Below the pieces are notes generated by a model. That model searched no databases, had not been told where the DNA came from, and saw nothing but the letters and a program-made list of their open reading frames with translations. Positions 2,752 through 11,722 of a stretch of 64,000 bases of DNA are shown here, piece by piece. Source of the DNA: Verrucomicrobiales bacterium (GTDB taxonomy: Bacteria; Verrucomicrobiota; Verrucomicrobiia; Verrucomicrobiales; DEV007); the NCBI GenBank assembly GCA_029213065.1, contig JARGPH010000001.1:62001-126000 (forward strand), given 5' to 3'. Within the stretch, counting starts at the first letter, position 1. Each line of letters begins with the position of its first letter. The position numbers and the translations under genes are program-made.

Positions 2752-5700
2752 ATGCGTTTTTACCTCCCCATAGCAATCATCTTTCTAACCGTTTTCGCGA
2801 ACGGCAGGGAAATCGATTTCAATCGTGACGTTCGTCCTATCCTCTCGGACAAGTGCTTCAAATGCCACGGTCCCGACGCGACAAACCAGAAGTCGGAGTT
2901 CCGCATCGATACGCTGGAACACGCCACCGCTGATCTGGGCGACTATTTCGGCGTTGTCCCCGGTGATCTCAAAAACAGCGAAACCCACTGGAGAATTCAC
3001 TCTGATGATCCCACGGACATCATGCCCCCACCCGAGGCAAAGATGCAGCTCACAGCTAAGGAAATCGCAATCCTTGATCAATGGATTGAGGAAGGCGCCA
3101 AATACGCTGACCACTGGGCCTTCGTTCCCGTTCCGGAATCGATCCCTGTTCCCAAACTGGATTCGGATGAGGCAAGCAGCCCCATCGACGCCTTCATCCG
3201 GAAAAAACTCAGCGAAGAGGGCTTCGTTCCCTCCAAAGAAACGACACGGGAGAAATGGCTCCGCCGCGTCACTTTCGATCTCACCGGGTTACCTCCGACA
3301 GTGGACGAGCTCGAGGCGTTTCTCGCCGACCAATCCCCCAACGCTTACGAAAAAATCGTAGACGAGCTCTTCACCCGTGACAGCTACGCCGAACGCATGA
3401 CCGCTGAATGGATGGATGTCGCCCGCTACTCTGACTCCTACGGATTTCAGGTCGATCGTGATCGCACCGTCTGGCAGTGGCGCGACTGGGTCATTCAGTC
3501 ATTCAAAAACAATCTCCCTTACGACGATTTCATCACCTGGCAGCTTGCGGGCGATCTCCTCCCCAACGCGACGAGAGACCAAATTCTCGCAACCACCTTC
3601 AACCGCCTCCATCCGCAGAAAGTTGAAGGGGGCAGCGTTCCCGAAGAATTCCGGGTTGAGTATGTCTCCGACAGACTCCACACCTACGGAACCGCGTTCC
3701 TCGGCCTCACCATGGAATGTTGCCGCTGCCACGATCACAAATACGATCCCACCACGGCGAAGGACTACTACCAGCTCTCCGCTTTCTTCTCGAACATCGA
3801 CGAAGCCGGCCTTTACTCATTTTTTACTCCGGCAGTTCCGACGCCGACCCTCTGGCTGCCGGACGAAAAACAATCAGAGGAGCTTACCACCCTTGAAAGG
3901 AACATCGCGGAATCCAATGCCTCATTGAAAAAGATCGCCACGAACGCGAAGGCGGACTTTACAGCGTGGGCGGCAACAAACCCGACCATCGACGCCAGAA
4001 AGCCGATCGCCTCATTCTCCTTCGACACCCGCGAAAAAGACATCTTTCCCAACGCATCCGATCCTGACAAGCCCGCTAAATCACCGGCCAAAAATACTAC
4101 GGTCGAAGGCAAGTTCGGAAAGGCCGTCAAACTCACCGGAGACGACGCGATCACTCTGCCTGTCGGAAATTTCACCCGCGATGATGAGTTCTCCGTCAGC
4201 CTCTGGGTCAAGACGCCCGACACCAAAGAGCGCGCCGTGATTTTCAGCCGTTCCAAAGCCTGGACGGATGCCGCGAGCCGCGGCTACGAGCTGCTTCTCG
4301 AAGAAGGAAAACTGAGCGCAGCCCTGATCCACTTTTACCCCGGCAATGCAATACGCGTGAGAGCTAAAGAACCACTCACGCCCGACGAATGGAGACACGT
4401 TTCGATGACCTACGACGGATCGAGCGAAGCAAGCGGGCTGAAGCTTTACGTCGACGGAGCCCTCATCGAAACTGAAGTCGTTCGCGACGAACTCACCCGT
4501 GAGATCACCGGCGGCGGGAGTGATACGATCGTGATCGGCGAGCGCATGCGCGACAACGGATTTAAGAACGGCCTCGTCGATGAATTCAAAGTGTTCAACC
4601 ACCAACTGAGCCCTGCTGAAGCCAATGCCATCGCGGGCAGTAAAGACACCTTCTCCCCGGATATCGAGTTTTACCTCAGTTCGACAAACAAAGAGTCCGT
4701 CGCAGTTAAAGCAGCTCTATCAAAACACCGCAAAGCCCGATCCGAACTCGTCAAGAAGGTTCCCGAGATCATGGTGATGCGGGAGAGCGAATCGCCCCGA
4801 CAGAACTATCTCCTCGACCGCGGACTTTACTCCAACCGCGGAGAACCCGTCTCACCGGACACGCCTCACTTTCTCCCTCCCGGCCCTGACAAGGCCAACA
4901 AGAACCGGCTCGACCTTGCGAAGTGGACTGTGGCTGACAACAACCCTCTCACCGCCCGCGTCACTGTGAATCGCTACTGGCAGATGCTCTTTGGTCGTGG
5001 CCTCGTTTCCACCAGCGAAGACTTCGGAAGCCAGGGAAAAATCCCCTCCCACCCCGAACTACTCGACTGGCTCGCCCGCGACTTCATGGAACACGGATGG
5101 GATGTGCGGGGCCTCCTCAGGCAAATCGTTCTTTCAGCGACTTACCGCCAGGAGTCCGAAATCCGGTCAGGCGAACTTGTCGCAAAGGACCCGACGAACA
5201 CACTCCTCTATCGCTTCCCCGCGCCGCGCCTCTCCGCTGAAATGATTCGCGACAACGCTCTCGCAGTCAGCGGGCTGCTCGCGGAAAAAACAGGTGGTCC
5301 GTCCGTCAAACCCTATGACATCGAAGTGTCGTTCAAGCCCTCCAAAATCGGAACGGGCGACGACCTCTACCGGAGGAGCCTCTACACCTATTGGAAACAG
5401 ACAGCACCGGCTCCGCTCATGACAACCCTCAACGCCTCCAAACGCGATGTCTGCCGGGTGAGACTTGAAAAGACCGACACCCCGCTGCAGGGGCTCGTCA
5501 TGCTGAACTCGCCGCAATTCGTGGAAGCGGCCCGCCACCTCGCCACGATCCTTGTGTCGAAACACGGTGAGGATCAAAACGCGATCATCACCGAAGCCTT
5601 CCAGACCCTCACAACACGAGCGCCGGACGAAACCGAATTCCAAATCCTGACAGATCTCTTCACTGAGCAAGAATCCCATTTCGAATCGGACATCCCCGCT

Positions 5701-7300: not shown

Positions 7301-7455
7301 GTAGATACGTCACCTCTGTGTAAATCCTTATCATCCGTTTTCCCATCTGTATAAGAAATATCAAGAGCACAGATTCAGCTTCACTTTCAGAGAGGCACTC
7401 AGATTGACACAAACCCGTTTTGCTTGAGAATATCGTTGAGCAAACCGCAGCAAAG

Positions 7456-7920
7456 ATGAACGAAGAGATCGCACCCGCCGATATGCCGACCTGGGCAATC
7501 CTCCTCATTCCCGTTGCATTTGCTATTATCTTCCCCTGCTTCTGGTGCTTCATCATGTGGATCAACAGCCACGTGAGCGGCTGGAATCGTCTCGCGAAGC
7601 ACTACCGGAGTGAGGAAACGCCATCCGGAAAAACCTGGACCGGAGTTCAAGGTATGATCGGCGTCGTTTCCTACAAAGGAGTCCTCACCTGCACGACGAA
7701 CGAAACGGGTCTCTTTATTCAACCGGGGCTGCTGTTCAAATTTGGGCATCCCCTCCTCTTTATTCCCTGGTCTGAATTTCGCGAGGCGAGAAAATCGACG
7801 GTGCTATGGTTTCAATATGTCACCGCCCGCATCGGTAATCCAAGCCGGGGCCGACTCAGACTCGCTGCCAACGTGATCGAAGATTCCCAAGGTAGAAAAG
7901 TCTTGCCCCAAAATTCCTAA
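7456..7920 (+). CDS. Hypothetical membrane-anchored protein
   Basis: I do not recognise this 154-residue protein. The ATG at 7456 is preferred over a TTG at 7420. A single strong transmembrane segment (about residues 14-37, AILLIPVAFAIIFPCFWCFI) is followed by a soluble part rich in beta-prone sequence. The segment GLFIQPGLLFKFGHPLLFIPWSEF resembles small PH-like or DUF domains seen in bacterial membrane proteins. It stands alone between the DUF1501 gene and the convergent BlaR1-like gene (14 nt away). No signal points to a function. Confidence 0.6.
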   Translation: MNEEIAPADMPTWAILLIPVAFAIIFPCFWCFIMWINSHVSGWNRLAKHYRSEETPSGKTWTGVQGMIGVVSYKGVLTCTTNETGLFIQPGLLFKFGHPLLFIPWSEFREARKSTVLWFQYVTARIGNPSRGRLRLAANVIEDSQGRKVLPQNS

Positions 7921-7934
7921 CTCATTAGCACCCC

Positions 7935-9965
7935 CTAATCTCCAGGAATAACGACGGTGACTCCCCCAGCTCCAATTTCGAGGGAACCTCCGGCAGAAGT
8001 CGCAGTATATTTCAAAACATCACGCAACGTAACATTGGTGAGTTTGAGAGAAATGCGGATGTCATCGAGTTCCTCACTGTCCCCACTGTAATTGAGAATG
8101 ATGTTAATCCCTGAATTATCAGTTGAGAGCTCAGCGGATCTCTGCCTGATAAAACTCAATGCACCAGGCAGAGGAGTATTACTGAACTCAAGAGAGGGAA
8201 CAACGATCTCATCCAATTTCGCCTGAAGCGCCTTTAGATTCTCTTTATCGTCCTCCCGTACAAGCAGATTAAAGTTTCCTTTTTCACCATCTTTCGGAAA
8301 GAATAGCCTCACTGCATGTTCCTCGATGTTCATGCTCGCACGAGCCAACTGCGCCACGTAAAAGAACGCTTGGCCAATAGGCACGTTCGTTAACCTCATC
8401 GTAATTAGGGCATCAGTATCTCCGCCCTCCGGGTCGAGAATCACATTCACCCCCTTCTTAGAGGGGTCTTTGGTTGTCGTGTCGAGCTCGACCGATCTTG
8501 CATGAAGAAAAGCAAGGGCATCCTTCAACGGAGTGTCACGAAACTCGACTGAAGGCAGCCTGATCTCCTTCAACTTCTCCTTATTGCTCTCCAGCGACGG
8601 ACTCTGCCCCACCGGATCCATCTTTACCTTTTCAACCACGACCGCGCCATCCTTGATCGAAAATCCCAACTGCGCCAGTGAGGTCGTGTAGCGAAGCACC
8701 TCCTCCATCGGAACATTGCTCAGCTTCAGCGTGATACGGGTATCGTGGAAATCATCCCCCCTCTTTCGTGTATCGAGAATGACAACACCCTTTCTCTCCG
8801 GATCGAGTTCAACACTTCTCTGCTGGAGAAACCTCAAAGCGTCCGAAAGCGGCGTGTCATTGAATTCGACCTTCGGAAGGATCGTGGACTCCAATCGTTC
8901 TTTGGTCTCAGCATCCCGGTCATCTCCCTTTGCGCCTTCAGCCCACCCTGCCATTCCAATAAGGAGGACTATCAACATCATCGCTGCGGGCAGCACTTTG
9001 TTCACGGAGGAAGGGGCATCCTTCCCGTTATCGGTTTCGGTTTTGGGGTTCAGTATCATTTTTATTCGTTTTTCTATGGTTCCGGTTTCTGCGACCGACG
9101 TTGCCGAGGTGCGCCAAAGGGGTGAAGCAGGCGACGAGGCCTGACGAAACAACATTTCCGCATAATTCCGCCGGGGATACCCGGATCGCAAGACGCGGCG
9201 GTCACAGGCTTCCTCTCTCAGTTGAACCGCTTTCCGAACCGCGATCCAGGCAAGGGGATTCACCCAGTTCAGGGCGAGGAAAATTCGGGAAAGACAAACC
9301 GCAAGGGCGTCCCTTCGACGAACATGTTCAAGCTCGTGCATCAAAACCATTTCCAAATCGACCGCCAACCAATCACAGGCTGCCTCGGGTATCACAATTC
9401 GCGGGCGAAAGATTCCCCAGGTAAAAGCGGATCTTACCGACGAAGACACCAGTAGCGCGACATTGCTCTGTGGAGAAATCCCGGCCCGCAATTCAAGAAA
9501 CCTCCGCCCGACATTCCCGGTCGCGGGGCGCGCTTCTTTCTCCAGCCTCCTCAACAATCGTGCGGCAATCAAGGATCGTCCCACAAACACGATCAATCCC
9601 AAACTCCACCCTGCCAGTATCCACTCAGCCCAACCCACTTGAAGCGAACTTTCCACCGCAACGAGAGGCGTCGCCTCACTCGAAAGAACCGGAGTCAGCG
9701 GTTCGGAGAAAACGGCCCCGGTTCCAATTGGAATTACCTCCTCTTCGGCGGCAACGCCAATCGCCGGAATCACTTCCCACCGCGGGAACAACATCCACAG
9801 CAATGGAATCACGAGCCCGACGGCAAAGATTCGCAGCAAAAGAGTGTGCTTCACCGCAGGTGAAAGCCTGGCAAACACGTGCACGAAACCAATCCCCAAC
9901 GCAATGAGAAGGGCCGACTTCCCGAGATATTCGGCGAGAAACCATAGAGCGTTTGAATCGATCAT
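7935..9965 (-). CDS. BlaR1-type M56 peptidase sensor with three C-terminal STN-like repeats
   Basis: 676 residues. The N-terminal part is a polytopic M56 domain with the zinc motif HELEH at 210-214 and the downstream EEACDRRVL. A further membrane segment lies near 324-342. The C-terminus is not a penicillin-binding domain. Instead three related units occur (about 362-447, 470-556 and 589-675), each with a core like VEFNDTPLSDALRFL / VEFRDTPLKDALAFL / LEFSNTPLPGALSFI, a VILD-type strand and a LxLTNVxxxxxL segment. This resembles the short N-domains of secretins and TonB receptors (STN). By analogy with BlaR1 it would sense a periplasmic signal and cause cleavage of the repressor encoded just upstream, which it overlaps by 4 nt. 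Confidence 0.85.
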   Translation of the reverse strand: MIDSNALWFLAEYLGKSALLIALGIGFVHVFARLSPAVKHTLLLRIFAVGLVIPLLWMLFPRWEVIPAIGVAAEEEVIPIGTGAVFSEPLTPVLSSEATPLVAVESSLQVGWAEWILAGWSLGLIVFVGRSLIAARLLRRLEKEARPATGNVGRRFLELRAGISPQSNVALLVSSSVRSAFTWGIFRPRIVIPEAACDWLAVDLEMVLMHELEHVRRRDALAVCLSRIFLALNWVNPLAWIAVRKAVQLREEACDRRVLRSGYPRRNYAEMLFRQASSPASPLWRTSATSVAETGTIEKRIKMILNPKTETDNGKDAPSSVNKVLPAAMMLIVLLIGMAGWAEGAKGDDRDAETKERLESTILPKVEFNDTPLSDALRFLQQRSVELDPERKGVVILDTRKRGDDFHDTRITLKLSNVPMEEVLRYTTSLAQLGFSIKDGAVVVEKVKMDPVGQSPSLESNKEKLKEIRLPSVEFRDTPLKDALAFLHARSVELDTTTKDPSKKGVNVILDPEGGDTDALITMRLTNVPIGQAFFYVAQLARASMNIEEHAVRLFFPKDGEKGNFNLLVREDDKENLKALQAKLDEIVVPSLEFSNTPLPGALSFIRQRSAELSTDNSGINIILNYSGDSEELDDIRISLKLTNVTLRDVLKYTATSAGGSLEIGAGGVTVVIPGD

Positions 9966-10375
9966 GAGGGCTCCTCCTCCCTGTTCCTGCGAGCGTCCTC
10001 AATCATCCTCGAAATTCGCTCGAGCTCTTCTGAAGAAATTTTCTCCCCCGTGTCCCCCAGCAAACTCGAAACGGCACCGGCGACCGACCCCTGAAAAAAG
10101 GTATCAACGAGACGACTCAGCGCCGAAGTCGCCGCGACCTCGCGCTCGACTCGCGGCGAGTAGAGGAAAGTCGCGCCTTCGACCCGGTGGGTAACGTGAC
10201 CTTTCTCTTCGAGAATGCTGAGCTGCTTTCTCACCGTTGAATAGGTCCGGGACTCACCAAGAGCACTCCAGACATCACGGGCCGTCGCATTCTCCTTTCG
10301 AAAGAGCACCTCCATCACCTCCCGTTCCCGGCGACTCAGGGAAGGGTCCTCAAAATCTGCGTTCTTCTTAGGCAT
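9962..10375 (-). CDS. BlaI/MecI/CopY-family repressor
   Basis: 137 residues, normal size for the family. The N-terminal winged helix is evident (LSRREREVMEVLFRKENATARDVWSAL, then SRTYSTVRKQLSILEEKGHVTH), followed by a dimerisation tail. The last codons overlap the M56 sensor start by 4 nt, so the two are translationally coupled, as in blaI-blaR1. Its likely operators are two dyads at 10374-10391 and 10419-10436. They lie between this gene and the divergent esterase, and one overlaps its own start codon, which fits autorepression. Confidence 0.9.
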   Translation of the reverse strand: MPKKNADFEDPSLSRREREVMEVLFRKENATARDVWSALGESRTYSTVRKQLSILEEKGHVTHRVEGATFLYSPRVEREVAATSALSRLVDTFFQGSVAGAVSSLLGDTGEKISSEELERISRMIEDARRNREEEPS

Positions 10376-10391
10376 GCGACTTTTTTCGCAC
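10374..10391. promoter_or_regulatory. Putative BlaI-type operator 1 (TGCGA-n6-TCGCA)
   Basis: Inverted repeat TGCGA, six-nt spacer, TCGCA, overlapping the start codon of the BlaI-like gene. It is nearly identical to the second dyad 45 bp away. A BlaI-like dimer bound here would block its own transcription or translation start. Assignment rests on symmetry and position only. Confidence 0.6.
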
Positions 10392-10418
10392 TTTCGGCAA
10401 AAAAGGTCAATACAAAAC

Positions 10419-10436
10419 GTGCGATTTTTTTCGCAC
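10419..10436. promoter_or_regulatory. Putative BlaI-type operator 2 (GTGCGA-n6-TCGCAC)
   Basis: Perfect 6+6 dyad GTGCGA / TCGCAC around six Ts. Between the two dyads, on the minus strand, lies TTGTATTGACC, which contains plausible promoter hexamers for the repressor gene. The esterase gene starts 86 bp to the right, so it could be under the same control. Confidence 0.6.
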
Positions 10437-10522
10437 CCTTGTTACAGAAAAAACTGAGCATCCCGCAATCAGTCCGAATTGATTGGTTTCCTGCGACCTC
10501 ATTATCGGCTCTAATTCTCCCA

Positions 10523-11722
10523 ATGAAATTTCTTCCGGCTCTCATTCTCCTGTCACTCGCTCTCCCTCTTTTCGCTCAGGAGAAGAAGTGGACTCCGCCG
10601 CCTGCGATCGAGCTGAGCAAGCTCATCGGAAAGGACAACGAACTCGCTGCCAAAAAAATCAAAGCGAGCTGGGGAGAGAAAGGACTCAAGAGCGGCAAGC
10701 ATAAGTGGATAGAGGAAACCACCCTGCTCCTCGGCGTCATCTCGGACGAACCTGTCACGGCCGTTAAAAAAGACGGCACCAAAATCGGTGACCTCACCCG
10801 CCTCAACGACGAAGGCCTCTACGCTCTCGCCACCGACGTCGGCAACATTCAGGACTTCGCCTACGAATTAAAAACCACCTCCGGTAAAGTGTTAGGCAAC
10901 GGTCAGGTCAAAATCGAATATTACCCTGCTCCCCCCGAAGTCTTCCGCAAAGAGGGCATTCCCGAAGGCGCCTTACACGAGCACAGCTGGACAGACTCCA
11001 AAATTTTCCCGAACACGGAGCGGGACTTCCTCGTCTACATCCCCAAACAATATGATGGAAGCGAGCCCGCCTCTCTCCTCGTCTTTCAGGACGGACTGCG
11101 CCACGCTGATCGCGACCTCGATGGAGGACTTCGCGCCCCCACCGTTTTTGACCACCTCATCGCCTCGGGGGAAATGCCGGTAACGATCGGCATCTTCATC
11201 AATCCGGGGCGTCTCAAGGATCAACCCGCCGGCGGAAGGGCAAAAAACCGCAGTCTCGAATACGACGGACTCGGAGCCGACTACGTCACCTTTCTCCTCG
11301 AAGAGATCATCCCCTTCGTAACAAAAGAGCATGATCTCAAGCTAAGCGACAATCCCGCGGACCGCGCCATCGCCGGCGGGTCGAGCGGTTGCGCCGCTGC
11401 CTGGACCGCCGCGTGGGAACGTCCCGACCAGTTCGGGAAAGTACTCGGCTGGGTTGGCACCTTCACCGATATCCGCGGGGCCAATGCCTACCCGTCACTG
11501 ATTCGTAAAACCGAGCGCAAGCCGATCCGTGCGGCCCTGCTCGGCGAGCGCAACGATGTCGACAATCAGTTCGGGAGCTGGCCTCTCGCCAACAAACAAA
11601 TGGAGACCGCCCTGAAGTTCGCTGATTACGATTACCGCTATTGGTGGGGCGACGGCTTCCACGGAAGCCGACATGCCGCCGTGATGCTTCCGGAAATGCT
11701 TCGCTGGCTCTGGTCTGAATAG
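10523..11722 (+). CDS. Secreted esterase of the Fes/EsteraseD (CE1-like) family
   Basis: 399 residues from the ATG at 10523, which opens a clear signal peptide (MKFLPALILLSLALPLFAQ). Residues about 60-135 form a beta-rich N-terminal domain, and about 160-395 the esterase domain. The nucleophile motif is GGSSG with Ser287; LLVFQDG near 186-191 and GFHGSRH near the C-terminus complete the expected oxyanion and catalytic-His regions. Family members hydrolyse feruloyl, acetyl or siderophore esters; given the adjoining sulfatases a carbohydrate ester is likely but unproven. Two hairpins separate it from the next gene. Confidence 0.85.
   Translation: MKFLPALILLSLALPLFAQEKKWTPPPAIELSKLIGKDNELAAKKIKASWGEKGLKSGKHKWIEETTLLLGVISDEPVTAVKKDGTKIGDLTRLNDEGLYALATDVGNIQDFAYELKTTSGKVLGNGQVKIEYYPAPPEVFRKEGIPEGALHEHSWTDSKIFPNTERDFLVYIPKQYDGSEPASLLVFQDGLRHADRDLDGGLRAPTVFDHLIASGEMPVTIGIFINPGRLKDQPAGGRAKNRSLEYDGLGADYVTFLLEEIIPFVTKEHDLKLSDNPADRAIAGGSSGCAAAWTAAWERPDQFGKVLGWVGTFTDIRGANAYPSLIRKTERKPIRAALLGERNDVDNQFGSWPLANKQMETALKFADYDYRYWWGDGFHGSRHAAVMLPEMLRWLWSE

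Follow-up and report, generated by a model that had tools for sequence, protein, structure and literature searches.

The gene at positions 7935-9965 of the window (the whole stretch of 64,000 nucleotides that was analysed) encodes a BlaR1-type membrane protease whose C-terminal half is occupied by three STN units, and in sequence the closest counterpart of these units is the N0 domain in the verrucomicrobial type IV pilus secretin. Proteases of the BlaR1 type are familiar chiefly as sensors of beta-lactams. The architecture of an M56 protease followed by one to three STN units is well supported as a recurring one in Verrucomicrobiales. The favoured reading, to which a probability of roughly 0.4 is assigned, is a BlaI/BlaR1 switch whose sensor, built from N0 domains like those of the pilus secretin, reacts to the secretin complex of the pilus or to the state of the envelope. 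The features of the sensor gene are the following.

7935..9965, minus strand: blaR1-like gene, open reading frame uninterrupted between ATG and stop codon (676 aa); encodes an M56 membrane protease that ends in three STN units
9054..9647, minus strand: Peptidase_M56 match, residues 107-304 (Pfam; zinc motif)
8931..9017, minus strand: last hydrophobic (membrane) helix, residues 317-345 (hydropathy; helix 320-337 in the model)
8622..8906, minus strand: STN unit 1, residues ~354-448 (model pLDDT 92.7; fold and secretin matches)
8295..8585, minus strand: STN unit 2, residues ~461-557 (profile match)
7941..8228, minus strand: STN unit 3, residues ~580-675 (profile match)

The description of the protein as a BlaR1-type sensor in the initial annotation agreed with the intact 676-residue frame, the hydrophobic stretch at about residues 317-345 and the match of Peptidase_M56 (PF05569), which was determined with an E value of 6.9e-29 and a score of 101.4 bits against the cut-off of 31. 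The zinc motif HELEH is located at residues 210-214 (window 9324-9338) and REEACD at residues 250-255; H210, E211, H214, E251 and D255 were invariant across 11 aligned sequences. The sensor model (residues 6-298) aligned with S. aureus BlaR1 (8exs) over 249 residues with a Z score of 20.9 and an rmsd of 4.3. By Pfam, motifs and model alignment, residues 1-345 are a BlaR1-type membrane protease. The pTM of the full-length model was just 0.44. With the generic BlaR1 model of NCBIfam (NF000326), the sensor scored 82.2 bits, under the cut-off of 400. The absence of a penicillin-binding domain had also been claimed, and no penicillin-binding or transpeptidase family was found in the sensor at E values up to 1; the three units account for residues 354-675. 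By analogy with the topology of BlaR1, the last helix would place these units outside the inner membrane. The window sensor was the sole M56 match reported in the source genome, whose assembly is 96% complete.

The three units of about 90 residues are, on their sequences, plainly paralogous. They were found within a few residues of the positions claimed earlier, as determined with the unit-profile matches at residues 358-444, 465-553 and 584-671 and with the shuffle test, in which 0 of 1000 shuffles was as high as the observed score for each of the unit pairs. The unit pairs shared 42/93, 35/89 and 37/97 identities in the alignment columns. The EFxxTPL motif quoted in the initial annotation is real: 26 of 96 columns of the unit alignment were invariant, including those of E-F-x-x-T-P-L-x-x-A-L-x-F-x-x-x-R-S-x-E-L, and the conserved core was seen over 26 aligned units. 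The match of Pfam STN (PF07660) in the window sensor (E 2.7e-4, 21.1 bits) was below the gathering score of 28.4; the relatives L062, which is 69% identical, and L064 were above it with 34.0 and 37.9 bits, respectively. When single units were scanned with Pfam at E values up to 0.01, STN was matched in 12 of the 26 units, and unit 1 of the window, scanned by itself, had no Pfam match. The Pfam STN model gave two weak matches and no more in the whole source genome, which means that Pfam by itself would miss most units.

To unit 1, a model with a mean pLDDT of 92.7 was assigned from the alignment of the 26 units. Foldseek resulted in no match at an E value of 0.001 or better. The top match was the C-terminal domain of a FecR-type anti-sigma factor (4m0n; E 1.2e-3, TM 0.65), followed by a phage baseplate protein and PilQ and, lower, by other secretin N0 and TonB-transducer signalling domains; 6ovk was also among the fold matches. 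In the VIA-align comparison, Z scores of 10.1 with 4m0n (74 residues, 1.9 A), 9.9 with PilQ 4av2 (76 residues, 2.0 A), 9.9 with EscC and 9.6 with PupR CCSSD (73 residues) were determined. Phage tail proteins of similar arrangement scored as high (9m7n, Z 10.4; 3d37, Z 10.3), therefore, the fold by itself cannot pick the relative of the unit, whereas the sequence does. The predicted fold is of the secretin N0/TonB signalling type with two beta-alpha-beta motifs. The earlier assignment of the units to STN or secretin N-domains was thus upheld by the model, the fold matches and the PilQ profile matches, and was refined to pilus-secretin-like N0.

Sequence comparisons support pilus-secretin N0 as the closest match to the units. 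The 26-row unit profile was compared with PDB sequences, and the best six matches were all PilQ with E values of 3.2e-4 to 0.15, the first two of the six having E<0.001. The best NCBIfam match of the sensor was the Amuc_1098 pilus secretin (NF042912), with an E value of 2e-56 in three stretches; the score of 191.5 bits is far below the full-length equivalog cut-off of 750. In the genome-wide scan, each of the three stretches was located on positions ~243-356 of the Amuc_1098 model. The source genome has two Amuc_1098-type secretins above the model cut-off. The secretin on contig C1 adjoins genes matching the Amuc_1099, Amuc_1100 and PilM-like Amuc_1101 families, and of these matches, those to Amuc_1099 and Amuc_1100 exceed the respective cut-offs and that to Amuc_1101 falls short (605 vs 650). 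The sensor gene is not adjacent to the pilus genes on C1, which counts against the pilus-secretin reading.

In alignments with the C1 pilus secretin of the source genome, unit 1 had 57 identities in 129 columns (score 217), unit 2 had 53 in 126 (score 222) and unit 3 had 44 in 131 (score 131). The corresponding scores between the units were 179 (1-2), 167 (1-3) and 143 (2-3). By these scores, units 1 and 2 lie closer to the secretin N0 than to either of the other units, whereas unit 3 resembles unit 1 more than it does the secretin, which speaks against the pilus-secretin reading. The relative L066 was co-linear with secretin N0-N1, with 112 identities in 250 columns, gaps included, and the Amuc_1098 model matched the M56 relatives L066, L067 and L064 with E values of 5.5e-89, 9.3e-64 and 9.6e-67, respectively. 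In the unit tree, built on 91 columns and with 40 of its 64 inner branches left open, the five secretin rows formed a clade of their own and the BlaR units were scattered, mostly without firm placement, and for this reason the tree settles neither descent from the secretin nor the direction of transfer.

Like units were present in other exported proteins of the source genome, which indicates that the unit may be a general contact module and argues against a pilus-specific reading. Proteins of the VWA/YfbK_C type with a part of the Amuc_1098 N region were observed in the source genome (L085 7412-10905, contig C34) and in another genome (L080 4011-7979, G025). In the source genome, this gene comes immediately after one for an ECF sigma factor, and so pilus-secretin parts also lie beside sigma-factor signalling. 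On contig C33 of the source genome (L082), a small protein with a signal peptide recognised by eye and two STN units is encoded at 3748-4452, and at 9573-11303 a protein of 576 aa that combines Amuc_1098-like segments with LysM and an STN unit; a histidine kinase gene lies between the two.

Among 70 loci of M56 relatives on GTDB contigs, the units were present in 10, all of them in Verrucomicrobia. With our unit profile, which is tuned to its own family and would miss distant STN domains, no units were found in the other 60 (Planctomycetes, Clostridia and others, Bacteroidetes groups, Gemmatimonadetes, Persicirhabdus and more). M56 and a unit shared one open frame in at least 16 of 112 sampled genomes of the order, across three families, as hand-picked among the matches listed. 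The initial annotation had called the triplication unusual. This was borne out only in part: of the 21 distinct M56 proteins with units that were examined, the unit profile found three units in 6, two in 12 and one in 3, so that the triplication is one state within a recurring architecture of variable copy number. The window units were 90%, 65% and 57% identical to the same-numbered units of genome G022, and two of the three pairings were well supported in the tree. The triplication is therefore probably older than that species split. In a further relative (L076 6802-8985, G001), the M56 protein has a secretin-domain match (31.3 vs the Pfam cut-off of 27.5) followed by two STN units. A search of open-access literature by title and abstract revealed no account of the architecture of M56 with STN units.

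The sensor gene overlaps by 4 bp with a gene for a BlaI-like repressor, which bears out the BlaI-BlaR1 pairing noticed earlier. The features of this side of the locus are listed below.

9962..10375, minus strand: blaI-like repressor gene, 137 aa (Penicillinase_R E 2.6e-24, 86.2 bits vs cut-off 22.6)
10375..10390, minus strand: putative operator 2, TGCGAAAAAAGTCGCA, palindrome overlapping the blaI start codon (CGC-ATG)
10420..10435, minus strand: putative operator 1, TGCGAAAAAAATCGCA, palindrome upstream of blaI
10523..11722, plus strand: divergent gene, putative esterase (PF00756; Esterase E 2e-15; signal peptide by eye)

The starts of the putative operators are separated by 45 bp, and the -35-like element TTGACC stands in between. 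With a 17-bp spacing the -10 element would fall within operator 2 and the transcription start approximately at the ATG, and the message of the blaI operon may be leaderless. The dual palindrome arrangement was found in 14 of 288 genomes of the order, compared to 1 with the read-backwards control. At each of the 14 loci, blaI and then an M56 gene come after it. Ten of these M56 genes encode STN units, three encode Amidase_3 and one (L068) runs off the contig end. The between-site element, read on the blaI strand in the 14 matched strings, was TTGAC in 12, TTGCC in 1 and TTAAC in 1. The three Amidase_3 loci (L211, L212, L215) encode an M56 protein ending in that domain, with no STN unit detected.

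Four M56 proteins ending in Amidase_3 were located: L211 3660-6218, L212 5932-8013, L215 3722-6181 and L220 3568-5934 (genomes G160, G120 and G117). The first three stand after the dual palindrome and blaI and the fourth after a single exact site, as a swapped-sensor version of the switch; the sensors of L211 and L212 also had a weak secretin-domain match (E 0.01-0.02). The L068 contig (G005 C496) is short and carries a second blaI-M56 pair at 415-798 and 2-403. This second blaI is without the exact pattern and has the half-site TTAGCA for TTCGCA; the pair may be an insulated paralogue whose specificity has shifted.

When the cut bond of S. aureus BlaI, Asn101-Phe102, was aligned through MecI, Asn-Phe was not kept in the BlaI rows; the segment at the aligned cut was GSVxGAVSSLLG in 7 of the 14 rows reaching there, and the rest vary around the same. 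The loss of this bond counts against the favoured reading. The divergent esterase gene, the start of which (ATG 10523) was chosen by the analyst, shares the operator-bearing intergenic region with blaI, and in G022 a similar gene likewise points away from the operon (by eye). The esterase is a possible second target of the BlaI-like repressor. On the other side, a convergent 166-aa ORF at window 7420-7920 (plus strand) had no Pfam family above the cut-off; a similar ORF adjoins the sensor gene in G022 (L062 10250-10714, by eye).

The palindrome had two exact matches in the window, both being the operators of the operon itself. With one mismatch allowed, 6 matches were found vs 3.8 expected, and 19 of 100 shuffles reached as many, thus the one-mismatch matches are uninformative. 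In the source genome, exact GTGCGA-N6-TCGCA occurred at 8 distinct sites, the two operators and six others, and the read-backwards control gave 2 rows. Of the six, five are within long ORFs. The sixth is a perfect palindrome on contig C41, within a doubtful 87-aa ORF and ~75 bp upstream of an AlkZ-like gene, and may be either chance or a second target. In eight relatives, the full palindrome was found beyond the blaI promoters at two sites, both within long ORFs. The exact pattern GTGCGAA-N4-TTCGCA gave 25 distinct sites in the 14 dual-palindrome genomes, of which 24 were at blaI-M56 promoters and one inside a gene; it was found neither in the source genome nor in G022, whose sites are an A/G variant. 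One of the 24 belongs to a second pair in G117, with a blaI recognised by eye and an M56 protein that ends in Amidase_3. At the exact-match level, the near-restriction of the sites to blaI-M56 promoters suggests that the circuit is mainly autoregulatory; targets with degenerate sites may exist in addition.

In the mechanism proposed for the favoured reading, the topology, repressor binding, direct cleavage, the partner and the direction of the signal are modelled on BlaR1 and FecR/PupR biology and are joined to the observed protein anatomy, fold, secretin kinship and conserved dual palindrome, almost confined to blaI-M56 promoters. The BlaI-like repressor would bind the dual palindrome around the -35-like element, overlapping the -10 region and the start codon of its own operon, and would keep the operon off. 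The M56 protein would reside in the inner membrane with the zinc protease on the cytoplasmic side and the chain of three STN units in the periplasm. There, the chain would most likely contact the secretin, inner-membrane partners of the Amuc_1099/1100/1101 type or small exported proteins of the STN type. A change in this contact, with the secretin complex missing, mis-assembled or overloaded, would activate the protease, which would cut the repressor and derepress the blaI operon. The sensor may in this way read a secretion or outer-membrane signal. According to the BlaR1 study, the protease cuts BlaI directly, and its authors propose that the sensor moves the protease between occupied and accessible states (PMC9834060). 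The regulator PupR is reported to have a C-terminal STN subdomain which is part of the signalling contact (PMC7186176), and the work on FoxR describes STN domains as binding one another and inner-membrane proteins (PMC11637429).

A narrower proposal, held to be unlikely, is that the Verrucomicrobiales protease is a sensor of type IV pilus assembly, the STN chain of which mimics secretin N0 and competes for its partners. The repressor would then be cut if the secretin were absent or if unbound partners accumulated. The N0-type or neighbouring secretin parts carried by M56 sensors, by the VWA protein encoded next to the ECF sigma factor and by small exported proteins could, according to this proposal, represent a shared envelope-signalling code derived from pilus parts.

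Sibling sensors under the shared palindromes bear an amidase domain, and the main rival of the favoured reading is therefore a general sensor of envelope or peptidoglycan stress, in which the STN chain would touch the wall or wall-bound proteins and report on the state of the cell wall, as classical BlaR1 does, with no binding of beta-lactams. M56 is combined with Amidase_3 under the shared dual palindrome in L211, L212 and L215 (the amidase match of L212 being partial), behind the single exact site in the second G117 pair and, with no operator pattern seen, in L075; a protein of the source genome with LysM next to an STN unit and a weak ExbD/TolR-like match in the relative L108 (E 0.012) point in the same direction. 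However, no wall-binding domain was detected in the window sensor and its C-terminus is occupied by secretin-type N0 units. Wall sensing is considered a tentative alternative, less likely than the favoured reading. It is improbable that the STN chain serves for dimerisation or spacing, with proteolysis or the membrane state as the stimulus. Such a role would be consistent with the variation of the unit copy number among relatives and with the like units in other exported proteins, but the one-to-one conservation of the units with G022 and the conserved core over the 26 units argue against it.

The FecR-type anti-sigma domain as the best Foldseek match, together with the Z score with PupR CCSSD, could be taken to indicate FecR-like cell-surface signalling, in which the units would pair with the STN of a TonB-dependent transducer. 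In contrast, the four Plug proteins of the source genome consist of Plug and barrel, with no STN at E values up to 0.01. Due to this the TonB-transducer partner was downgraded and the explanation is regarded as quite improbable; with an assembly completeness of 96%, an STN-bearing TonB receptor could be missing from the assembly. Beta-lactam sensing of the BlaR1/MecR1 kind is hardly to be expected despite the BlaI-M56 pairing and the BlaR1-like membrane and protease part: the operator sites found by exact match are almost solely at blaI-M56 promoters, the C-terminus consists of STN units, and the reading was set aside because no penicillin-binding domain was found.

A recurring version with pilus-secretin-like N0 units would point to the M56/BlaI switch as a general chassis for signalling whose sensors can be exchanged, and an N0-type M56 sensor would suggest a route for Verrucomicrobiales to monitor the pilus machine. 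Akkermansia is a member of this order. The Amuc_1098-1102 proteins of Akkermansia were reported to be highly abundant (PMC5332112). The near-private operator raises the question of what the circuit controls besides itself.

In comparison with BlaR1/MecR1-BlaI/MecI of S. aureus and B. licheniformis, the window system shares the inner-membrane M56 zinc protease with HExxH, a C-terminal extracytoplasmic sensor, the adjoining BlaI-type repressor gene and palindromes at its own promoter. The sensor is BlaR1-like in its membrane half; by the domain that defines a beta-lactam sensor it differs, having three STN domains and no detected penicillin-binding domain. The exact operator sites of the window system are almost solely at blaI-M56 promoters, and its BlaI does not keep the Asn-Phe scissile pair.

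With the anti-sigma factors FecR, PupR and FoxR, the common features are an inner-membrane signalling protein and an STN at the C-terminal end, presumably on the periplasmic side. In contrast to these, the N-terminal part is M56, the cytoplasmic output is a protease with a repressor and no anti-sigma domain, no STN-bearing TonB receptor was found in the 96% complete genome, and the STN units are three in tandem. The Amuc_1098 pilus secretin (NF042912) and PilQ N0 share both the sequence and the fold of the unit, and the N0-N1 order is shared in the relative L066. Unlike the secretin, the window protein has no detected TPR region or secretin channel, and the M56 helices would anchor it in the inner membrane.
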